IMG/VR virus record: IMGVR_UViG_3300046642_000303
Coordinates: 1-25,506 of that record
Strand: one strand, 5' to 3'
Origin: a virus
DNA: 25,506 nt
The position numbers and the translations under genes were made by a program. The notes beneath the pieces were generated by a model. That model was not told the DNA's origin and ran no database searches. It saw only the letters and a list, made by a program, of their open reading frames with translations. Positions 1-10,390 of this stretch are shown piece after piece (the first letter of the stretch is position 1; each line of letters starts with the position of its first letter).

Positions 1-230
1 ATCTGCGCCGTATCAAGTCGGCAGCGCCTAGCATGTTCCACTTAGCCTAACCCTTTTCCTCGAAGGTGAACGCGATCTGCTGGTTGTCGTTGGCGGGTGT
101 TGGCATGACGTTGCGGTGAATGCCCCAATGACAGCATCCACCAAATGCCCACGAAGCGATACCTGACCTATATCCGCTCGCCGCAATGCCTTACAATGAA
201 GGGGCCTAATACAAATATCTACTCGAAGAA
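1..230. other. left-edge stretch with no assignable gene
   Basis: All three forward frames are open from the edge only briefly, with stops at 29-31, 43-45 and 48-50. Any of them could be the last few codons of an upstream gene, expected to be terminase or another head gene. The third frame ends in MFHLA then TAA at 48-50. Frame 2 is open again from 32 to about 164 but has no convincing start. A 35-codon ORF at 145-252 overlaps the next gene and has no visible ribosome binding site. I see no RNA gene, terminator or clear promoter here. Confidence 0.4.
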
Positions 231-422
231 ATGGTTCGCGTTTTACATTTGAATTATGATGACAATAGCGATGTGTACAAACGACTAAACGATCCAAATA
301 ATGGGACTCTAAGCCAGCTTTGGGATGAGGGTTGGGAATTTCTAGTGGTGGTAAATGGTGAATCTTATTGCGTCAGTAGTGACGGCATTCGTCCATGGTA
401 TGAGGAAGATTCACCATGTTGA
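231..422 (+). CDS. small acidic hypothetical protein, 63 aa
   Basis: I do not recognise this protein. It is a 63-residue acidic polypeptide, aromatic-rich near its end, with no signal peptide or membrane segment. It is visibly more AT-rich than the genes that follow. Its stop (TGA, 420-422) overlaps the ATG of the protease-capsid gene at 416, so the two would be translationally coupled, and that is the main reason to accept it. A purine-rich GAAGAA lies close before the ATG but is a weak ribosome binding site. It could be a small accessory gene carried next to the capsid, or a chance ORF in a recombination scar. Confidence 0.45.
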   Translation: MVRVLHLNYDDNSDVYKRLNDPNNGTLSQLWDEGWEFLVVVNGESYCVSSDGIRPWYEEDSPC

Positions 423-2365
423 ACCGAGCCTATTCGCTTTTGACGGTTAAAGCCGTCGACGAGGACGCGCGGATCATCACCGGCATGGCATCGACGCCGA
501 CGCCGGATCGGCTTGAGGATGTGGTCGAGCCCGCCGGCGCGCAGTTCAAGTTGCCGCTGCCGTTGCTGTGGCAGCACGACTCGAGCCAGCCGATCGGCCA
601 CGTCACCCATGCCAAGGTTAGCAAGGCCGGCATCGAGATCATCGCCAAGATCGCCAAGGGCGTCACCGCCGAGATCGACCGCGCCTGGTCGTTGATAAAG
701 GCCGGGCTCGTCCCCGGCCTCTCGATCGGCTTCAAAGCGATCGAGACCGCGCGCATCGAAAAGACCAGCGGAATTCGCTTCATCAAATGGGATTGGCTTG
801 AGCTCAGTGCCGTGACCATCCCGGCCAACATCGAAGCATCCATCCAGACCATCAAATCGATCGACACTGCGCAGCGGGCCGCGTCCGGCCCACGAGCTCG
901 TGGTGTTGTTCATCTCAACCCACCCGGCGCCTCGGGACGATCCCAACCCGCCCAGGAGGGCGCTGCTATGAAAACGATTGCCGAACAGATTACTGCGCTT
1001 GAGGCCAAACGGTCCGCGAGCGCGGCCCGCATGGAAGTCGTGATGCAAAAAAGTCTCGACGAGGATCGGACCTCGGATGCGGCCGAGCAGGAAGAGTTTG
1101 ACGGCTTGCAAGTCGATGTCGAGAAGCTCGACAAGGATCTGGTGCGGTTGCGCCAGCTCGAGAAGGCGAAGGCGTTCGCGGCCAGGCCGATCATCAAGGC
1201 CGACACCGCGGCCGAAGGTGCCGCCGCCCGCGCCGGCAGTATTGTCGTGCGTGGCCAGCCGCAACTCGAGCCGGGCATCGAGGCGGTGCGGATCTGGAAA
1301 GCGCGGATCTGCGCGAGGCTGGATGGCCGTCCCGTCGCGGATGTTGCCGGTGAAATGTACGGCGCCGATTCCAATGCCTATGCCGCGGTGACAAAAGCCG
1401 CGGTGCCGGCCGGCACGACCATCTCGCCGAATTGGGCCTCCGGGCTGGTCGGAACGGAAACCGGCGCGGTCGCTGATTTCGTGGAATGGTTGCGGCCGCG
1501 GACCATCCTGACTCGCTTCGGGACCGGCGGCGTTCCAGCCTTGCGGGCGGTCGGATTCTATCTGCCGCTGATCACGCAAACCAGCGCCGGGGCCGGCTAC
1601 TGGGTCGGCGAGGGGAAAGCCAAGCCTCTAACTGCGTTCAACTTCACGCGCACGCACCTGGTGCCGACGAAGGTGGCGAACATCACCGTCCTGACCCAAG
1701 AGAATATCCGCTACAGTAATCCGAAGTCGGACACGATCGTTCGCGATCAGCTTGCGGCCGCACTGATCGAGCGGCTGGACATCGATTTCATCAATCCGGC
1801 CAAGACCGCGGTGGCCGGAATCTCGCCGGCCTCCATCACCAATGGTGCGCCGGCCATTGTCTCGTCAGCGGGAACGGATGCCGACAGTGTGCGCCTCGAT
1901 CTGCGCTCGCTGTGGGCCAAATTCACTGCGGCAAATAACCCGCCCACGACCGGCGTATTCGTGATGTCATCCAACGTGGCGGTATCACTAGCATCGATGG
2001 TCAATCCATTGGGGCAAGAGAGCTTCCCCGATATGAACATGACCGGCGGCACGCTGTTTGGAATGCCGGTGATCTCGTCCGATCACGTCGCCGATACCAT
2101 CGTCGTTCTGGTCAATGCGTCGGACATCTATCTCGGCGACGAGGGTGGCGTTGCGGTCGATGCCAGCATGGAAGCATCGATCGAAATGTCGGATGCCCCA
2201 ACCGGGGATTCCGGCGCACCAACGGCATCGACAGCCGTCTCGATGTTCCAGACCAACTCGGTCGCGATTCGCGCCGAGCGGACAATCAACTGGGCTCGCC
2301 GCCGCACGCAATCGGTCGCCTATCTGACCGGCGTCGATTGGGGTGGCCCCGTCCATACGGCATAG
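416..2365 (+). CDS. fused prohead protease / HK97-type major capsid protein
   Basis: This 649-residue protein joins two head genes that are usually separate. Residues 1 to about 150 look like an HK97-family (peptidase U35) prohead protease: LLWQHD gives the likely catalytic His54, GLSIGF gives Ser103, and WLELSAV gives Glu129. Such proteases process the scaffold part of the capsid protein during head maturation. A linker rich in Ala, Pro and Gly (about 150-184) leads into a coiled-coil delta-domain-like segment (185-255) and then an HK97 capsid fold, with WVGEGKAK and a C-terminal MFQTNSVAIRAERTINW. The start at 416 has GAGGA at 402-406. A second start inside the frame (see 968) probably makes capsid protein alone. 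Portal normally comes before protease and capsid, but here it follows. Family assignment is by motif and layout. Confidence 0.9.
   Translation: MLNRAYSLLTVKAVDEDARIITGMASTPTPDRLEDVVEPAGAQFKLPLPLLWQHDSSQPIGHVTHAKVSKAGIEIIAKIAKGVTAEIDRAWSLIKAGLVPGLSIGFKAIETARIEKTSGIRFIKWDWLELSAVTIPANIEASIQTIKSIDTAQRAASGPRARGVVHLNPPGASGRSQPAQEGAAMKTIAEQITALEAKRSASAARMEVVMQKSLDEDRTSDAAEQEEFDGLQVDVEKLDKDLVRLRQLEKAKAFAARPIIKADTAAEGAAARAGSIVVRGQPQLEPGIEAVRIWKARICARLDGRPVADVAGEMYGADSNAYAAVTKAAVPAGTTISPNWASGLVGTETGAVADFVEWLRPRTILTRFGTGGVPALRAVGFYLPLITQTSAGAGYWVGEGKAKPLTAFNFTRTHLVPTKVANITVLTQENIRYSNPKSDTIVRDQLAAALIERLDIDFINPAKTAVAGISPASITNGAPAIVSSAGTDADSVRLDLRSLWAKFTAANNPPTTGVFVMSSNVAVSLASMVNPLGQESFPDMNMTGGTLFGMPVISSDHVADTIVVLVNASDIYLGDEGGVAVDASMEASIEMSDAPTGDSGAPTASTAVSMFQTNSVAIRAERTINWARRRTQSVAYLTGVDWGGPVHTA
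954..970 (+). promoter_or_regulatory. internal Shine-Dalgarno and start for the capsid protein
   Basis: AGGAGG at 954-959 sits 8 bases before ATG at 968-970, in frame with the surrounding 649-codon gene. The match to the anti-SD sequence is full length. It lies exactly at the protease/capsid linker boundary, which makes chance unlikely. Confidence 0.8.
968..2365 (+). CDS. major capsid protein from an internal in-frame start, 465 aa
   Basis: Codon 185 of the fusion gene is ATG, preceded 8 bases upstream by AGGAGG (954-959), one of the strongest ribosome binding sites in the window. Translation from here gives a 465-residue protein of normal length for an HK97 capsid subunit with its own delta domain: a charged coiled coil in the first 70 residues, then the capsid fold. 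Hundreds of capsid subunits but few proteases are needed per head, so a nested start would supply the excess. That ratio argument is inference; the SD and reading frame are seen directly. Confidence 0.75.
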   Translation: MKTIAEQITALEAKRSASAARMEVVMQKSLDEDRTSDAAEQEEFDGLQVDVEKLDKDLVRLRQLEKAKAFAARPIIKADTAAEGAAARAGSIVVRGQPQLEPGIEAVRIWKARICARLDGRPVADVAGEMYGADSNAYAAVTKAAVPAGTTISPNWASGLVGTETGAVADFVEWLRPRTILTRFGTGGVPALRAVGFYLPLITQTSAGAGYWVGEGKAKPLTAFNFTRTHLVPTKVANITVLTQENIRYSNPKSDTIVRDQLAAALIERLDIDFINPAKTAVAGISPASITNGAPAIVSSAGTDADSVRLDLRSLWAKFTAANNPPTTGVFVMSSNVAVSLASMVNPLGQESFPDMNMTGGTLFGMPVISSDHVADTIVVLVNASDIYLGDEGGVAVDASMEASIEMSDAPTGDSGAPTASTAVSMFQTNSVAIRAERTINWARRRTQSVAYLTGVDWGGPVHTA

Positions 2366-2380
2366 TTTACGGCATAGTTT
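2357..2380 (+). repeat. 12-bp tandem duplication containing the capsid stop codon
   Basis: ACGGCATAGTTT is present twice head to tail (2357-2368 and 2369-2380). The unit holds the last two codons and the TAG stop of the capsid gene, so the duplication places a second in-frame TAG at 2375-2377, four codons after the first. Confidence 0.9.
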
Positions 2381-2391
2381 AACGCCAACTG

Positions 2392-2434
2392 GCCGGCGGC
2401 AAGCAAGGCCTCCAACCTTGCTGCCGGCATTTTT
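2392..2434 (+). terminator. hairpin terminator or attenuator after the capsid gene
   Basis: The arms 2392-2403 and 2417-2428 pair over 12 bp with one G-U, around a 13-base loop, followed by ATTTTT (five T, 2430-2434). This has the form of a Rho-independent terminator with a short T run. It lies in the only sizeable gap in this part of the late operon, directly after the capsid gene. It may reduce read-through to portal and later genes, or protect the 3' end of a capsid mRNA. Confidence 0.7.
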
Positions 2435-2447
2435 GGAAACCAAACCC

Positions 2448-2798
2448 ATGAAAAGAATGCTCGGGCTGAAAGCTCTCAGGCCGCATTTGTACGGCACGCG
2501 CCGGCTCGAGGCGGGCGATGAATACGAAGCGCCGGCCGAAGAAGCGATCGCCCAAGTCGCAACCCGCAAAGCGGACTTCATCAAGGGCAAAATGAGAGTG
2601 GCGGATACACCAGCGCCGGCCGAGAAACCAGCGCCGCCGCCTACGCCCATACCGCAACACGAACCCGAGCCCGAACCCGAGCGTGGCGAGCCGGATATCG
2701 AAAACTTGCGCCGCGAGGCCATGCAGCTCGGCATCGATGTCGATGGCCGCTGGGGCGTGGCGCGGCTGAATTATGAGATCGCCAAGGCGAAACGCTGA
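2448..2798 (+). CDS. small phage protein with C-terminal HeH-like domain, 116 aa
   Basis: The start at 2448 (MKRMLGL) was chosen because the upstream in-frame codons run through the terminator hairpin. The N-terminal half has a short motif of the type seen in small phage proteins next to capsid genes (LYGTRRLEAGDEYEAP). The middle is a Pro/Glu-rich linker with repeated PEPEPE. The C-terminal part (LRREAMQLGIDVDGRW, about 82-97) resembles the HeH/LEM-like helical domain found at the ends of small phage proteins. Its role is unknown; a minor head or head-fibre component would fit. Its stop overlaps the portal start by one base (TGATG). Confidence 0.7.
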   Translation: MKRMLGLKALRPHLYGTRRLEAGDEYEAPAEEAIAQVATRKADFIKGKMRVADTPAPAEKPAPPPTPIPQHEPEPEPERGEPDIENLRREAMQLGIDVDGRWGVARLNYEIAKAKR

Positions 2799-4213
2799 TG
2801 CGCATCCTCGGCCTGCCAGTGCCGTTCACCGGCGAAAAGCAAAAGCAAATCGGTGCGCTTACTTCCGTCACGGAAGGCCGCGGCGGCTGGTTTCCGATTG
2901 TGCGCGAGCCTTTCACCGGCGCGTGGCAGCGCAATATCTCGATCAACAACGACATGGTGTCGTCGTTCAATGCGGACTTCGCCTGCAAGACTCTGATTTC
3001 CCGCGACATCGCAAAGCTGCGCGTCAAGCTCGTCGAGCAAGATAGCGACGGCATTTGGTCGGAGACCACCAACCCGGCTTTTAGTCCGGTGTTGCGCCAG
3101 CCGAACAACTATCAAACCCGCAATCAGTTCTGGGAAAGCTGGCTACTGTCGAAGTTGAGTCGCGGCAACACCTATGTCCTGAAGATTCGCGACAATCGCA
3201 ATATCGTCACCGATTTGCATGTGCTCGATCCTACTCGCGTGCAGCCGCTCGTGGCGCTCGATGGGTCCATATTCTATCGCCTGAGCACCGACCATCTCGC
3301 TGGCCTGGACACCGAGATCGTGGTGCCGGCGCGCGAAATTATCCACGATCGGTTCAACTGTATGTTTCATCCGCTGGTCGGTACGCCGCCGGTGTTCGCC
3401 AGCGGGCTCGCCTCGATGCTCGGGCTCAACGCGCAGAAGGCATCAGCACTGTTATTTGAAAATAACTCAACGCCAGGCGGACTGCTCACCGCGCCCGGCG
3501 AAGTCACCGAGGTCGAAGAAAAACGCATCAAGGAAGAATGGGAACAGCGTTTCTCGCGGGTGAATCTCGGTCGGGTAGCGGTGCTTTCCGGCGGCATGAT
3601 GTATCAAAAAATGCCGCTGACCGCGGTTGAAACGCAGATGATCGACCAGCTCAAATGGTCGGCGGAAACGGTGTGTTCTGTTTATCATGTACCGCCGTAC
3701 AAGGTGGGCATCGACGTGCTGCCGCGCGGGTTTACCAATCTGCAGGCTTTGAACGTCGAATATTATTCGCAGTCATTGCAATCGCACATCGAGGAAATCG
3801 AGGAACTGCTCGACCAGGCACTCGGCATCGGCGAGGCCGAGGGACTCGGCACCGAATTCGATACCGATAACCTTTTGCGCATGGACACCATCGCGCTGAC
3901 CACCACCGTCAAGGATGCCGTCGGTGCTGGTGTGATGTCGCCGAACGAGGGCCGCGCCAAGCTCGACTTGAAGCCGGTCACGGGCGGCGACTCGCCGTTC
4001 CTCCAACAACAAAACTATAGCCTTGAGGCGCTCGCTAAGCGCGACGCGCAGGCCGATCCGTTCGCGCCCGCAACGCCGCCAGCACCATCGTCCGCAAATG
4101 CGCCAGCCGACCAGGTGCCGCCGGCAAAGGATCAAGCGCCGCCCGCTGCCGCCAAATCTCTCGCGCAGCGGTTCAATCTGGCCTTGAAGGCCGTACATCG
4201 CGAGGCCGCATGA
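2798..4213 (+). CDS. HK97-family portal protein
   Basis: This 471-residue protein forms the dodecameric ring at one head vertex through which DNA enters and leaves and to which the tail attaches. Typical portal features are visible: NDMVSSFNADFACKTLISRDIAKL near the N-terminus, WLLSKLSRGNTYVLKIRD in the core, DRFNCMFHPLVGTPPV, and QMIDQLKWSAETVCSVYHVPPYKVG followed by NLQALNVEYYSQSL. The C-terminal 70 residues are a Pro/Ala-rich tail. Length is normal for the family. It overlaps the genes on both sides by one to four bases, so it is translated as part of a coupled series. It lies after the capsid gene instead of before it. Confidence 0.92.
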   Translation: MRILGLPVPFTGEKQKQIGALTSVTEGRGGWFPIVREPFTGAWQRNISINNDMVSSFNADFACKTLISRDIAKLRVKLVEQDSDGIWSETTNPAFSPVLRQPNNYQTRNQFWESWLLSKLSRGNTYVLKIRDNRNIVTDLHVLDPTRVQPLVALDGSIFYRLSTDHLAGLDTEIVVPAREIIHDRFNCMFHPLVGTPPVFASGLASMLGLNAQKASALLFENNSTPGGLLTAPGEVTEVEEKRIKEEWEQRFSRVNLGRVAVLSGGMMYQKMPLTAVETQMIDQLKWSAETVCSVYHVPPYKVGIDVLPRGFTNLQALNVEYYSQSLQSHIEEIEELLDQALGIGEAEGLGTEFDTDNLLRMDTIALTTTVKDAVGAGVMSPNEGRAKLDLKPVTGGDSPFLQQQNYSLEALAKRDAQADPFAPATPPAPSSANAPADQVPPAKDQAPPAAAKSLAQRFNLALKAVHREAA

Positions 4214-4467
4214 TGGATGACAACCTGCTCGCCGACCTCGCGGAGGGCCTGGTGCCATTCGTGCGCGACTACGTGACCGATGCATTCAGCAAGACCGTGC
4301 TGCCGCCCGAGCTCGCCGGGCAGGTCGCGATGGCGGTGCGGATGCTGCACGAGTCGCCACCAATCGAGCAGCACAGCGCCGCGCCGCGGCCATCGCCGAA
4401 GGTGACCCGCATCGAGCGCGATGAGGACGGCAACTTCGTGCCGGTCTACGACGAGGCGCAACCGTGA
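4210..4467 (+). CDS. small conserved-looking phage protein, 85 aa
   Basis: I do not recognise a named family. The protein has an amphipathic helical N-terminal half (LADLAEGLVPFVRDYV), a short Pro/Ser linker, and a charged C-terminus reading VTRIERDEDGNFVPVYDE. The start overlaps the portal stop (ATGA, 4210-4213), and a second ATG follows directly. By position it could be a small head protein or a portal or packaging accessory. Confidence 0.7.
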   Translation: MMDDNLLADLAEGLVPFVRDYVTDAFSKTVLPPELAGQVAMAVRMLHESPPIEQHSAAPRPSPKVTRIERDEDGNFVPVYDEAQP

Positions 4468-4829
4468 TCCTTGAACTGTCGGAAGATGCCGGCAATGCCA
4501 TGCTCGACGTGCTTGGCAGTATGATGGATGGCGGCAGCATTGAGTTGCTGACTAGCGATGGCACAGCCTTGGCGGTGCTGAATCTGTCCGACCCGGCGGC
4601 GCAGGATGCTATCGGCGGTCAGTTGGAGTTCAACGAGATTGCAGAGGAAGATGCCGCGCGCGCACAGGGCATCGTGGAAATTGCGCGCATCATCGCGGCA
4701 GATGGCAGCAATATCTTTTCCTGCGATGTCGGCGACGAGAACAGCGACGCAGCGATCAAGCTCAACACCACCAAGATTTATCGCGGTGGCCCGGTTCGGC
4801 TCAAGTCGTTCCGATTGGCAATGCCATGA
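4464..4829 (+). CDS. hypothetical phage protein, 121 aa, GTG start
   Basis: Translation begins at GTG 4464-4466, overlapping the previous TGA. The product is acidic, about 121 residues, with alternating hydrophobic stretches suggesting a beta-rich small domain (IELLTSDGTALAVLNL; GGPVRLKSFRL). It has no signal or membrane segment. The next gene starts inside its stop (ATGA at 4826). It sits just before the fibre gene, so it may help attach or fold a fibre; that is a guess from position only. Confidence 0.65.
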   Translation: MILELSEDAGNAMLDVLGSMMDGGSIELLTSDGTALAVLNLSDPAAQDAIGGQLEFNEIAEEDAARAQGIVEIARIIAADGSNIFSCDVGDENSDAAIKLNTTKIYRGGPVRLKSFRLAMP

Positions 4830-6283
4830 CCCAGCAGGTCATCAATATCGGCAGCGCACCGGATGACGCCACGGGCGATCCGCTGCGGACTTCATTCGAT
4901 AAGACGAATGAGAATTTCACCGAACTCTATTCCAAGGGGGCCACGGAAGGCCTCTGGAATTACAACAAGAGTAGCACCGATACCACCACCGCGCCGGTGT
5001 CGGGCCGCTTCAAAACCAATAGCGGAGACTATCGCGGCGCCACGCAGATTGCGATCAACGCGATCACCATTCAAGGCATCGATAGAAGCAGCACACTGCG
5101 GACACTGCTCGTTGGCGATCTTGTTCAGTGCCAGGATTCGACTAACGCCGCGGCCTGGTGCCGCTATAGTTTGCAATCGCTTCCGGTCGACCACGGAACT
5201 TGGTTTCAACTTAACGTCACCTATCAAACCGATGGCGGCGTGGCATCTGGCGATAATCAAGAAATCGTTTTTGTCTTCACGGCCAGCAGCGGTGGCGGCG
5301 GTGGCAACGTCAGCAATGTTGGCATACCAACAAACGGCCAGATTGCGCAGTGGACGGATGCCACTCACATCCAGGGCATTGCTACATCTACACTTGGTTT
5401 CGCGCCGCTTGCTTCGCCGACATTCACTGGCGATCCAAAGGCTCCAACGCCTACCGCGGGCGATAACGATACATCAATTGCGACAACAGCTTTTGTGGCC
5501 GCTGCAGTTGCCGCTGGAAGCGCCGGTGCACCAGTCGGTGCGGAATACATCACGTCAACGGCCAACGCGACGCTGACCGCCGAACGGGTGCTGACCGATA
5601 CCGCGACGGTGACGTGGGACCGCGCGACGGCGGGGCAGATCAAGGCCAATGCAGCGGGCGGCGGCAGCATCACCGCTCCTACCCGCACGGTTCTTACTTC
5701 GGGCACCGGCACCTACACCACGCCGACCGGGGCGACTTGGCTCGAAGTTGAACTGGTCGGCGGTGGCGGTGCCGGTGGGTCCGGCACTGTTGGCACGGAC
5801 GGTGGAAACACGACATTTGGCCCGATCACCTGTACCGGTGGAGGTGTGGGGCCTGCGGCTGGCAGCCCGGCGGTGAATGGCGGCACTGCAAGCGGCGGCG
5901 ATGTGAACTTAAAAGGCGCCGATGGGGATGCCAATACTGCGGGTGGCGTCCCCGGTCAGGCCCACGCCACCGGCGGCATGGGCGGTGTTTCGCCCTTTGG
6001 CGGCGCCGGGCGTGGTGTTTACGACGGCAATCCTCCCGGCGACGCTTCGCCCAATACCGGCTCGGGCGGCGGTGGCGGCGGCGTGAATGCGGCGGCAGGC
6101 GTCGCGGGCATGCAAGGTGGGGGCGCCGGTGGTTATGCCCGCAAGCTCATCGCTAGTCCGGCCGCAACATATAGCTATGCCGTTGGGGCCGCTGGCGTTG
6201 CTGGCTCTGCTTTCGGCAGCACCTATGCAGGCGGCAACGGTGGCAGCGGCATCATCATCGTGACGGCGCACTTCGGAGGGTAG
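4826..6283 (+). CDS. fibre protein with glycine-rich tip domain, 485 aa
   Basis: Three fibre hallmarks are visible in order. The N-terminus (about 3-32) has NIGSAPDDATGDPLRTSFDK then NENFTELY, a common tail-fibre attachment motif. Around residues 190-225, PLASPTFTGDPKAPTP followed by DTSIATTAFV matches the repeat seen in lambda Stf-like side fibres. From about 300 on, TWLEVELVGGGGAGG and a long Gly/Ala-rich segment end in GGSGIIIVTAHFGG, the glycine-rich receptor-binding tip type. The protein probably acts on the virion surface in host or surface binding. Its gene lies between portal and head-tail connector rather than with the tail tip genes, so it could be a head-attached fibre. Confidence 0.8.
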   Translation: MTQQVINIGSAPDDATGDPLRTSFDKTNENFTELYSKGATEGLWNYNKSSTDTTTAPVSGRFKTNSGDYRGATQIAINAITIQGIDRSSTLRTLLVGDLVQCQDSTNAAAWCRYSLQSLPVDHGTWFQLNVTYQTDGGVASGDNQEIVFVFTASSGGGGGNVSNVGIPTNGQIAQWTDATHIQGIATSTLGFAPLASPTFTGDPKAPTPTAGDNDTSIATTAFVAAAVAAGSAGAPVGAEYITSTANATLTAERVLTDTATVTWDRATAGQIKANAAGGGSITAPTRTVLTSGTGTYTTPTGATWLEVELVGGGGAGGSGTVGTDGGNTTFGPITCTGGGVGPAAGSPAVNGGTASGGDVNLKGADGDANTAGGVPGQAHATGGMGGVSPFGGAGRGVYDGNPPGDASPNTGSGGGGGGVNAAAGVAGMQGGGAGGYARKLIASPAATYSYAVGAAGVAGSAFGSTYAGGNGGSGIIIVTAHFGG

Positions 6284-6986: not shown

Positions 6987-7610
6987 ATGAGTGAATTACC
7001 CTCTCCGCAATATACCTGGAATGAGGCCATCGGTGTTTGCCTGGCCATGTGCCATCGCGCCTTGGCCGAGGTTCGTGCGCTCGCGCGCATCCCAGGACCG
7101 CCGGGCGAAACCGGCCCAGAAGGCAAGCGCGGGCTGCAGGGCGAGCGCGGCGAGAAGGGCGAGCGCGGGGAAGCCGGTAAGCCGGGCGCCATCGGCCAGG
7201 CTGGCGTCGACGGAAGACCCGGCGAGCGCGGCCAGAAGGGCGATCCCGGCCGCAACGCCAGCGATCTGACGTATCTGCAGGACTATGCCGTTGAGCAAGT
7301 CGGGCGCGCGCTCAAGACCGCCACGTTCACGAGCTCGGACGGCGGCCGCACCTTGCGCTGGGCCTTGGGCGAGACGGTGCATGAAATCAAGACCGCCATC
7401 GTCCTCGATGCCGGGGTGTGGAAAGAGGGAACAGCCTACGTTGCCGGGGATGGTGTGACGCTGGGCGGATCGTTCTTCATTGCGCAGGGCGACACGTCAG
7501 CCAAGCCCGGCAAGTCGGACGAGTGGCGCCTCGCCGTCAAGCGTGGCAGCGACGGGCGCGACTTGCGGCCGGACGAGAAACGTGTGCTCGAGCCGATTAG
7601 GTTCAAGTAG
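6987..7610 (+). CDS. collagen-like fibre protein with CBM-like C-terminus, 207 aa
   Basis: After a helical N-terminus (1-34), residues 37-90 form 18 uninterrupted Gly-X-Y triplets, which would fold as a collagen-like triple helix. Next comes a short helical trimer-like region (DYAVEQVGRAL). A C-terminal domain follows with WKEGTAYVAGDGVTLGGSFF and later SDEWRLAVKRGSDGRD, which resembles the small carbohydrate-binding modules (type 5/12) often seen in phage fibres. The product is likely a trimeric surface fibre that binds a glycan. It is followed without a gap by the connector gene at 7611, so it belongs to the same transcript. Confidence 0.82.
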   Translation: MSELPSPQYTWNEAIGVCLAMCHRALAEVRALARIPGPPGETGPEGKRGLQGERGEKGERGEAGKPGAIGQAGVDGRPGERGQKGDPGRNASDLTYLQDYAVEQVGRALKTATFTSSDGGRTLRWALGETVHEIKTAIVLDAGVWKEGTAYVAGDGVTLGGSFFIAQGDTSAKPGKSDEWRLAVKRGSDGRDLRPDEKRVLEPIRFK

Positions 7611-8285
7611 ATGCATTCGATCCTCGAAATCATCGGCGAGTCGACCGACAGCGCCGGTCCTGACCTGATCAGCCTCGACGACCTCAAGCTTGCGCTCGGC
7701 ATCACGGGCACGACCGAGGATGCGGCGCTGCAGGCCGCCATCACAATGCAGTCACGCATCATTGCAGAATATTGCAATCGTCGTTTCGGACTGGCCGAGG
7801 CGATGGAGACGTTCACATTCGATCGCGGTGAAATCATTTTGCAGCGGCAAGCTCTGGTACTGTCGCTATATCCGGTCTCGGCAATCTTCGAAGTGTCGAC
7901 GGCGGGCGCGACCGATGCCGATTATGAATTAGATGCGGAAGGCGGCCGGTTGTGGCCAGGAGGCACATGGTGGCTGGGCGCGCCAATCGAGAATCCTGGA
8001 GTGCCCTACCAGGGCAAGATCTCGGTCACCTATAGCGGCGGATATGATTTGCCCGAAGATGCGCCGGCAAGATTGCAGCGAGCTGTAATCGAGTGCGTCA
8101 GCAGCGTGCGCACGACAGCGGGGGGCGGCTATCGCGATCCAACGATTCGTGAGGTCCAGCACGGCGACACTCGCATAAGCTATATGTCGCCTTCATTTGC
8201 TTCCGGTGCAATCTCAACGGGACAACATCTTAGCCCATCGGTCGTCGATCTCATCAATCCGTTCCGGCGCCGGTATATCGCATGA
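7611..8285 (+). CDS. head-tail connector, gp6-like
   Basis: The protein is 224 residues. The N-terminal part (ISLDDLKLALGITGTTEDAAL, then IIAEYCNRRFG) matches the helical gp6-like head-tail connector fold (phage QLRG / phiE125 gp8 type). The later part has VTYSGGYDLPEDAPARLQRAVIE, the usual closing motif before a C-terminal extension. These proteins form the ring under the portal. The ATG abuts the stop of the collagen-like gene. The C-terminus overlaps the next gene by four bases. Confidence 0.85.
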   Translation: MHSILEIIGESTDSAGPDLISLDDLKLALGITGTTEDAALQAAITMQSRIIAEYCNRRFGLAEAMETFTFDRGEIILQRQALVLSLYPVSAIFEVSTAGATDADYELDAEGGRLWPGGTWWLGAPIENPGVPYQGKISVTYSGGYDLPEDAPARLQRAVIECVSSVRTTAGGGYRDPTIREVQHGDTRISYMSPSFASGAISTGQHLSPSVVDLINPFRRRYIA

Positions 8286-8914
8286 TGCAATTCTGGTCGG
8301 TCCCGCATGAATGGCCAGGCGAGACTGTCTTCATCATCGGCGGCGGGCCGTCGGTGCTCGGGGTCGACCTCGAGCTGCTGCGCGGCTGCCGCGTCATTGT
8401 CATCAATTCGAGCGTCTATAAGGCGCCATGGGCGGACTTCCTCTATTTTGGGGATTGGCGCTGGTGGAACGAGCCGGACAACCGGGCGGCAGTTGCGAGC
8501 TTCCGCGGCCGCGTCGTCACTGTCTCGCGCTTGGTAAGGGATCAAAAGGTGTTGACCTGCCGCACCGCCAACCCGCCGGGGTTGGAATTGCAGCAAGACA
8601 GTCTGATGCAGAAATGGACTTCGCTCACGGCCGCAACCAACCTGGCGGCGCATCTCATCGGGCCGGGCGGCACCATCGTCTGGCTCGGGGCTGACGGCCG
8701 GGTTGCCGCGGATGGCCGCACGCATCACCATAACCCGCACCGCTTTCCGCACCGGGCCGACTGCTACCACAAGCAACACGCGGATTTGGTGACGATCGTG
8801 CCGTCGCTGCAGGCGCTCAAGATCGCGGGATTCAATGCCTCGCCTGGAACGGCCTGGGGCGATCTTCTCCCAGTTATCAGCCTGCAGGATGTCCTTGAAC
8901 GACGCGCCGCGTAA
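8282..8914 (+). CDS. DUF115/sialyltransferase-like Rossmann protein, 210 aa
   Basis: Residues 16-25 read VFIIGGGPSV, the nucleotide-binding opening of DUF115 (MptE-like, motility accessory) proteins and, more distantly, of GT42 sialyltransferases (GNGPS type). Further features fit: VIVINSSVYKAPWADFLYFGD, a central WLGADGR, a His-rich stretch (147-165, with HHH) and FNASPGTAWGDLLPV near the end. It probably works in the cytosol on a sugar nucleotide or a glycan acceptor, but the reaction cannot be told from sequence alone. It is the first of three sugar-related genes placed between connector and head-completion genes. Identity as a sugar enzyme is inference from motif and neighbours. Confidence 0.65.
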   Translation: MMQFWSVPHEWPGETVFIIGGGPSVLGVDLELLRGCRVIVINSSVYKAPWADFLYFGDWRWWNEPDNRAAVASFRGRVVTVSRLVRDQKVLTCRTANPPGLELQQDSLMQKWTSLTAATNLAAHLIGPGGTIVWLGADGRVAADGRTHHHNPHRFPHRADCYHKQHADLVTIVPSLQALKIAGFNASPGTAWGDLLPVISLQDVLERRAA

Positions 8915-9791
8915 GCCAATTCTGATCCGCGGGATGTGGGGGCTCGGCGACAACATCTTTTCGCGGCCGTTCGTGCGCGCGGCGGCGGCACAATACGAGC
9001 TCCATCTCGAGACGCCATGGCCCGAGCTCTACGCCGATCTCGATATCAAGTTCATACGAGGTGGGCGTCGGCTGCGCACGCAGCAGAAGAATATCGTGCG
9101 GCAACCGGAGAGTCTCTGGTCGCGATCGTTGGCGCCGATGCGCGAAATGAAGGTGTCCTATTTCGATCTGGCATCGCGATCGATCATCCGGGCGCTGGAG
9201 GCCAGGTGGGCGGCACTGACAGTTGTCTTTGATCCGGCGCTGTTCGATCTGCCCGATATGGGGTCATCGCCGGTCGTCTCGCAGCGGCCGATCGCCGTCA
9301 TCCGGCCGGTGACGGTGCGCCAGGAATGGCGCAACGAGGCGCGCAACCCGCGGCCGGAATATATCGCCGCGCTGGCCCGTGAACTGATGCCGACGCACAC
9401 CGTGGTCGCGGTCGCCGACATCGCGCCAGGCCAGGAATGGGCGGTCGAGGGACTACCGCCCGCGCACCATTATTTGGTGTCTGGCGAACTGGCGGTGCGC
9501 GAGCTGCTCGCACTGGTGCGTGATGCAGATATCGTGATCGGCGGCGTCGGCTGGATCGTCCCGGCCGGCCTCGCGCTCAAGGTCAAAACCTTCGTGGTGC
9601 TGGGCGGCCATGGCGGCCACAACGCACCCGAAAAGATCACCGATCGGCGGCTCGATCTCAGCCGCATCGGGTTTGCCGTACCGGAGGCGTTCTGCCGATG
9701 CACGAATATGTTGCACACCTGCGACAAGAGGATCGCCGACCCGGTCGGGCAATACCACCGCTGGTCGCGCAGTTCTCGCGCCGTCGCCTGA
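8889..9791 (+). CDS. GT9 (heptosyltransferase-like) glycosyltransferase, 300 aa
   Basis: I chose ATG 8889, which gives MSLNDAPRK, over an upstream ATG at 8835 because it leaves only a 26-base overlap with the previous gene. The N-terminus has ILIRGMWGLGDNIFSRPFVR, the GxGDxI acceptor-side loop of ADP-heptose:LPS heptosyltransferases (GT-B fold). The C-terminal half has AVRELLALVRDADIVIGG and FVVLGGHGGHNAPEKI (about 235-250), the sugar-nucleotide side. A Cys-rich end follows (CRCTNMLHTC). It should transfer a sugar, perhaps to LPS, capsule or a virion protein; the donor is unknown. It is shorter than typical 340-residue heptosyltransferases. Confidence 0.75.
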   Translation: MSLNDAPRKPILIRGMWGLGDNIFSRPFVRAAAAQYELHLETPWPELYADLDIKFIRGGRRLRTQQKNIVRQPESLWSRSLAPMREMKVSYFDLASRSIIRALEARWAALTVVFDPALFDLPDMGSSPVVSQRPIAVIRPVTVRQEWRNEARNPRPEYIAALARELMPTHTVVAVADIAPGQEWAVEGLPPAHHYLVSGELAVRELLALVRDADIVIGGVGWIVPAGLALKVKTFVVLGGHGGHNAPEKITDRRLDLSRIGFAVPEAFCRCTNMLHTCDKRIADPVGQYHRWSRSSRAVA

Positions 9792-10390
9792 CCTGGTGGC
9801 CCGAGCTCGGCATTGGCCATTATCCGGTCGAGGTCGGGTTTGCGCCCTACGATCAGGACTATTTCGACAGCTTCGATCGCAACGCTAATAGCGATCTCGG
9901 GCGCGCGTTGATGAATGCGCGGTTCAACTTTGTCGAACGGCATTACAGGGGGACATTGATCGATGTCGGTATCGGCTCGGGTGCGTTCGTCGAACTCCGT
10001 TGCGCGCGCCGGCGCACAACCTACGGTTACGATGTCAACCCGGCCGGCCTCGAATGGCTCGAGCAGCGCTCGCTGCTGGTCGATCCGCATCTGGTTTCGT
10101 TCGATGCTGCAACGCTGTGGGATGTGCTCGAGCATATCCCGGATTTTCAATCGCTCTTGGCCAATGTGAAGGAATGGGTGTTTACGTCCTTGCCGATCTT
10201 CCGCGACGCCGAGCATGCGCTTTCATCCAAGCACTTCAAGCCGGACGAGCATTGCTGGTACTTCAGTCGCGATGGTCTCGTGTTCGCGATGAAACTATGC
10301 GGCTTCGATCTAGTGTCGGAAAGCATGATCGAGACCGAGCTCGGCCGCGAGGACATCGGAACTTTTGCGTTCCGAAGGGAACGGCGATGA
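9698..10390 (+). CDS. SAM-dependent methyltransferase (class I), 230 aa
   Basis: The class I fold is clear: motif I DVGIGSGAF (89-97), an acidic motif II at YGYDVNP (Asp112), FDAATLWDVLEHIPDF (135-150) as the motif IV region, then KPDEHCWYFSRDGL (182-195). This arrangement is typical of type 11/23 methyltransferases that act on sugars or small molecules. The first 31 codons overlap the end of the glycosyltransferase gene by 94 bases in another frame. No later in-frame ATG comes before the fold, so the start is likely right. It could methylate the sugar made or transferred by the two genes before it; this is inference from context. Confidence 0.78.
   Translation: MHEYVAHLRQEDRRPGRAIPPLVAQFSRRRLTWWPELGIGHYPVEVGFAPYDQDYFDSFDRNANSDLGRALMNARFNFVERHYRGTLIDVGIGSGAFVELRCARRRTTYGYDVNPAGLEWLEQRSLLVDPHLVSFDAATLWDVLEHIPDFQSLLANVKEWVFTSLPIFRDAEHALSSKHFKPDEHCWYFSRDGLVFAMKLCGFDLVSESMIETELGREDIGTFAFRRERR

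Follow-up and report, generated by a model that had tools for sequence, protein, structure and literature searches.

Tailed phages build their shell from hundreds of capsid subunits and have to enclose a limited number of proteases in it; in HK97 the two proteins come from separate genes, gp4 for the protease and gp5 for the capsid. In the viral DNA studied here (IMG/VR record IMGVR_UViG_3300046642_000303, positions 1 to 25,506; this whole stretch of 25,506 nucleotides is called the window), a protease of the same S78 type and a capsid protein predicted to share the HK97 shell fold and the N-terminal delta domain of the HK97 precursor are, unlike in HK97, encoded by one gene. This raises the question of how a single reading frame could provide both proteins in suitable amounts. 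The frame contains an internal ribosome-landing site, conserved in dozens of distant relatives, which very probably also gives the shell protein alone and would thereby fix the ratio of protease to shell protein with no second gene needed.

Anatomy of the fusion gene

The initial annotation had placed a prohead protease, with His54, Ser103, and Glu129 as its catalytic residues, and an HK97 capsid in one 649-codon frame and had noted that such fusions are already known in phages. The open frame, Pfam, and PHROG bear this out. Peptidase_S78 (PF04586) was found at residues 48 to 150 (E value of 8e-12; 46.0 bits against a cutoff of 21) and Phage_capsid (PF05065) at residues 382 to 638 (E value of 2e-18; 67.5 bits against a cutoff of 24.2), and TIGR01543 gave 46.6 bits, under its cutoff of 59. 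The model of PHROG 617 (phrog_617), itself a fusion family, aligns almost completely, with positions 9 to 626 of 626 matching residues 2 to 642 (E value of 3.9e-153). Fusions of this family, with the same domain order, include ORF003 of Pseudomonas phage PAJU2, annotated as “prohead protease fused capsid protein,” and those of Escherichia coli phage JLK-2012, Salmonella phage FSL SP-016, and Rhizobium phage RHph_X2_26. The three residues, predicted to be catalytic, are unchanged in 44 aligned relatives.

Structure prediction, which the initial annotation had proposed as a check, placed an HK97 shell and delta helices in the capsid half and gave a folded protease half. The AlphaFold2 model (me5f6e9857e4b; 44 sequences; mean pLDDT of 74.5) shows a folded protease up to residue 133, disorder from 136 to 185, helices at 188 to 215 and 222 to 255, and then the shell domain, so that codon 185 marks the end of the disordered linker, where the delta-domain helices begin. 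The modeled shell superimposes on HK97 prohead I (8fqk) with a VIA-align Z score of 17.2 (253 residues; root mean square deviation of 3.8), profile positions 199 to 266 align with residues 3 to 68 of an HK97-type major head protein (PDB 9gyi), and the matches from a fold search with the whole model cover the capsid half alone (residues 273 to 644). On the basis of model and profiles, the capsid part would be an HK97-fold major capsid protein with an N-terminal delta domain in its precursor. Given the delta helices and the HK97-matching shell, a product starting at codon 185 would be a complete HK97-type precursor.

Table 1. Features of the protease-capsid locus (coordinates are those of the window)
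Feature	Coordinates	Strand	Properties and basis
Complete fusion ORF encoding an S78 prohead protease, a linker, a delta domain, and an HK97-fold major capsid protein	416..2365	+	649 aa, uninterrupted, ATG start
Ribosome-binding region ahead of the protease ATG, GAGGAAGATTCACC	400..415	+	Weaker SD, -6.3 kcal/mol (anti-SD duplex energy)
Protease domain, residues 1-136	416..823	+	PF04586, invariant columns, AlphaFold2 strands E3-E133
Linker, residues 136-185	821..970	+	Predicted disordered, pLDDT <50
Internal Shine-Dalgarno (SD) element, AGGAGG	954..959	+	-10.8 kcal/mol; top SD among the 37 in-frame start codons of the ORF
Predicted internal start of the free capsid precursor, ATG at codon 185	968..970	+	Conserved; homologous to the capsid Met1 of split relatives
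Predicted nested product, free capsid precursor	968..2365	+	465 aa; Phage_capsid at its residues 198-454; HK97 fold
Delta (scaffold-like) domain helices, residues 188-255	977..1180	+	AlphaFold2 helices; profile match to PDB 9gyi
Portal protein gene, downstream of the fusion	2798..4213	+	PF04860, E value of 2e-75

The surroundings of the fusion resemble those in PAJU2. A contig (L002) that is 100% identical over window positions 1 to 5362 extends further left and carries a terminase-like ORF ending ∼180 bp left of the first base of the window, so that terminase and fusion are separated by one small ORF and fusion and portal by another, much like the arrangement of TerL, fusion, small ORFs, and portal in PAJU2. 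The ATG of the fusion overlaps the stop codon of the small upstream ORF at 231 to 422 (ATGTTGA at 416 to 422), and because of this overlap the start of the protease may depend on translational coupling. Further downstream, just after the head-tail connector gene and before the tail genes, there are three cargo-like genes (8282 to 10390), whose products match phrog_4603 (sialyltransferase-like), phrog_6804 (conserved, function unknown; E value of 1.7e-98), and phrog_6564 (methyltransferase). A collagen-like Gly-X-Y protein is encoded at 6987 to 7610; its C-terminal residues 130 to 193, a domain common to this tail-fiber-like protein and large portals, match the C-terminal end of portal families phrog_1289 and phrog_2271, the latter of which is also matched by the window's own portal.

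Conservation of the internal start

The initial annotation had described AGGAGG eight bases ahead of an ATG at codon 185, located at the linker, and all of these positions and numbers are correct: the spacer is GCGCTGCT (8 nt, 960 to 967), and the ATG is in frame. Across the whole window, AGGAGG followed by ATG after 4 to 10 nucleotides is expected 0.91 times and was found twice. Given this expectation, the motif is not significant by itself, and conservation had to carry the argument. The internal SD-ATG is lifted above chance by being in frame, exactly at the domain border, and conserved across relatives; a chance origin was thus set aside on conservation and not on the frequency of the motif.

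A search of viral contigs yielded 80 loci, and with further loci from genomes, a full-length fused frame was present in 74. Relatives were also sought in genomes with a Brucella genome as the center of the search; family phrog_80 was left out there, since its matches are mostly stand-alone proteases. Counts for the fused family refer to 51 nonredundant representatives (<90% identity), and every count is inflated by the relatedness of the sequences. At one homologous position, these representatives carry an ATG in 48 cases and, where the internal start differs, a GTG, which is a start codon as well, in 2 (L056 and L083), while in the remaining one (L046) the ATG is displaced by one codon through the alignment; such column counts are flattered by the preference of aligners for placing Met on Met. 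The start codon typically lies 5 to 9 nt 3′ of the SD in nearly all fused members, and both elements are retained at this position down to ∼40% identity. In PAJU2, for example, the homologous place reads CCCCAGGAGGGCAACGAC-ATG, with the ATG at codon 197.

The internal SD is usually the stronger one. Its median anti-SD energy was -10.8 kcal/mol versus -5.8 kcal/mol for the protease start, and it exceeded the protease SD in 41 of 50 representatives (Wilcoxon P value of 3e-7, ignoring kinship), with the reverse in the other 9. Among the 51 ORFs, the internal site has the strongest SD ahead of any in-frame start codon in 38, including that of the window. A minority of fused relatives have a weak internal SD (-1.0 in L043 and -4.4 in L056, and also L069 and L074), and enterobacterial Marienburgvirus and SP-016 phages carry AAGGA-type elements only. 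Together with the nine representatives that have a stronger protease SD, this suggests that the ratio of the products may be tuned differently in some lineages, enterobacterial phages among them.

The hypothesis had been staked on conservation of the SD and ATG among relatives with the same fusion; both are conserved, and it survives. The initial annotation had also regarded the internal start as marking out this particular fusion. The clear SD-ATG stands, but it is the general rule in the PHROG 617-type family and recurs in a second one.

Constraint at the SD: nucleotides over peptide

Because QEG is the commonest tripeptide encoded under the SD, a protein-level cause needed testing. For that, synonymous codons were resampled from the usage of each gene in 2,000 shuffles. 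The observed mean SD energy was -9.5, against a shuffle mean of -7.1 (z = -7.6; reached in 0 of 2,000 shuffles; n = 51). The excess persists among representatives below 75% identity (z = -5.1) and below 60% identity (z = -4.3; n = 16), and below 50% identity (n = 9) 4 of 2,000 shuffles were as strong as the observed SD. Single loci are not significant, since in many of them a third to half of the per-locus shuffles match the observed energy.

The codons point in the same direction. The Glu codon within the SD is GAG in 42 of 42 cases versus 57% elsewhere in the same genes, and the codon ahead of it, which encodes Gln, Lys, Leu, Pro, or Thr, nevertheless ends in G in 39 of 42 (28.8 expected). 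There are 18 different tripeptides at the site, with QEG in 21 of the 51 representatives. Seven representatives have the SD core in a different codon phase, where other peptides such as KGD, KGN, and KRT are found. The linker surrounding the SD is highly variable while the SD persists.

Split relatives and a second fusion family

In several relatives, protease and capsid are separate genes. The free capsid genes of these split relatives (Stenotrophomonas, Moraxella, Brucella, and L081) begin at the residue homologous to codon 185. The separate capsid gene of Stenotrophomonas phage SOVA965 begins with MKTYAEQIADLE (MKTYAEQI), homologous to MKTIAEQITALE at codon 185 of the window; in Moraxella phages Mcat4, Mcat7, and Mcat9, the protease and capsid genes overlap by ATGA at the homologous place; and in L081, the capsid is in a different frame with its start at the homologous place. 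One Brucella genome contains a fused prophage copy together with a split one (G001:C27), whose capsid start is TGGAGGTAGCA-ATG-GCTACTTACGCTGAACAG. Fused and split forms do not separate in a tree of the capsid parts but are mixed, with five changes, at least four of which are forced by starred branches; the tree is unrooted and gives these changes no direction. Such repeated switching fits an internal start that is already functional as a gene start; fission would cost little because this start already works as one.

Some relatives show further irregularities. The separate capsid gene of SOVA965 (L087, 2181 to 3586) is annotated as two overlapping ORFs, each named “major capsid protein,” for which a frameshift, a sequencing error, or a programmed shift are options. 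In the split relative L111 (G392; from 2079 on the minus strand of the locus), the capsid ORF is extended at its N terminus, and the extension, which precedes the delta domain, includes a hydrophobic stretch, FAWTIVAVAALACLFALTG. In L076 and L077, two distinct large viral contigs, the fusion frame (each from 3001) ends inside the capsid part, at codons 379 and 375, respectively, and both stops directly follow the same motif, FVEFLRP, which may reflect an intervening element or an intron-like insertion.

We also examined NF045541 (scaf_prot_MCP2), a protease/MCP fusion family that is different from that of the window, whose protein scores 57.5 bits against its curated cutoff of 525. An in-frame ATG is present at the homologous linker position in 23 of 24 genomic members, and in 15 of the 24 its SD surpasses that of every other ATG (2.2 expected), with SD sequences including CAAGGAGCATCCCCG, AGAGGAGCTGAA, and CAAGAGGAGTCCCCT. 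These SDs are stronger than in synonymous shuffles as well (z = -6.7; z = -4.2 below 60% identity). Two more distant fused ORFs, L108 and L113, have GAGGAGG or AAGGAGG ahead of a linker ATG. In Gifsy-2, the best in-frame SD-ATG is at codon 221, just behind the ClpP-like protease domain, and is weaker (-8.8). Given its conservation in the fused family, its match with the starts of split genes, and the linker SD-ATG of NF045541, the nested start of a free capsid looks like a recurrent design.

Proposed mechanism and alternatives

We consider it highly likely that the two in-frame starts lead to a minority of protease-capsid fusion and a majority of free capsid, which co-assemble and thereby place the protease in the prohead. 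Ribosomes loading at 416 would make the protease-delta-capsid fusion, and those loading at the internal AGGAGG and initiating at ATG 968 would make a protease-free capsid precursor consisting of delta and shell domains. Since the internal SD is stronger than the protease SD, free capsid should exceed the fusion, initiation being only roughly predictable from SD strength. We infer that fusion subunits would then co-assemble through their delta and shell domains, so that the prohead encloses a limited set of protease domains, which would cleave delta domains and linkers there to leave a shell of one mature protein. The excess of capsid over fusion and the targeting of the protease into the head, both suggested in the initial annotation, are read from SD strength and domain order.

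Alternatively, only the fusion could be made, so that each capsid subunit bears a protease that is removed by self-cleavage at the linker, the SD-ATG being left over from a time when the capsid had its own gene. There is a precedent in Gifsy-2, which has a single protease-scaffold-capsid gene and particles that mature (Effantin et al. 2010, Virology 402:355, as cited in PMC11930000); a relic is conceivable given that split and fused forms interconvert, and a disordered linker would be easy to cleave. A relic should decay, however, whereas the SD exceeds the synonymous expectation even below 50% identity amid a highly variable linker, a similar site is found in NF045541, and in Gifsy-2, too, the best in-frame SD-ATG closely follows the protease domain. 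We therefore regard this alternative as unlikely. Still less probable is a pause site: elongating ribosomes would be slowed at the SD-like element, giving the protease time to fold before the capsid is made, and no translation would start there. Its location exactly at the border of protease and delta domain would suit such a role, but a pause needs no start codon, which is nevertheless kept at its distance from the SD in nearly all members, and this residue is also the first one of separate capsid genes. Least credible, and largely refuted, is an SD that arises through codon bias from a conserved Gln-Glu-Gly linker peptide, which might serve in cleavage or binding: the frequency of QEG alone would yield part of the SD, CAG-GAG-GGC is common at high G+C, and per-locus shuffles often reach the observed energy, but the wobble G and GAG stay the same across different amino acids, the SD occurs in other phases, and the joint shuffles reject synonymous chance.

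Comparison with known systems

In the C/Nu3 gene of lambda, a protease-scaffold gene contains a nested in-frame scaffold gene. There, one frame with an internal start yields an excess of assembly protein over protease fusion, and the domain common to both brings the protease into the prohead; the window gene is proposed to work in the same way. Unlike lambda, which nests a scaffold and has a protease of another family, the window gene nests the capsid itself behind an S78 protease; its nested product contains the Phage_capsid domain and is thus not a scaffold separate from the capsid. By analogy, the window gene would be comparable in its working to C/Nu3, yet it is not a member of that system. 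Gifsy-2 resembles the window gene in combining a protease, a scaffold-like region, and a capsid within one frame and in having its best SD-ATG just after the protease, but its ClpP-like protease is unrelated to S78. In the thaumarchaeal proviruses NCAV2-Pro1 and Nvie-Pro1, a protease domain is fused to an HK97-like capsid protein, and the fluidity of these modules has been remarked upon (PMC6563490). These are archaeal, and the passages of that paper describing them do not raise an internal start.

Protease-capsid fusions and nested in-frame assembly genes are thus already known. For a conserved internal capsid start in such fusions we found no description in the open-access literature searched; subscription journals may contain one. 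In the six records of fused phages that we examined, the nested free capsid is absent from the annotation, each listing one product.

Implications for capsid maturation

Our results make it probable that internal initiation of free capsid generally accompanies protease-capsid fusion in tailed phages and evolved independently, with a ribosome-binding site under selection in at least two sequence-distinct families and repeated, nearly neutral switching between one and two genes, and that it is systematically missing from annotation. The nested start would solve dosage and targeting of the protease with one gene. If this is general, a large number of phage capsid genes are annotated without their main product, and proteomic searches use the wrong capsid N terminus. 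The role of protease dosage in capsid maturation would then be testable through one ribosome-binding site, which can be mutated without changing the protein.
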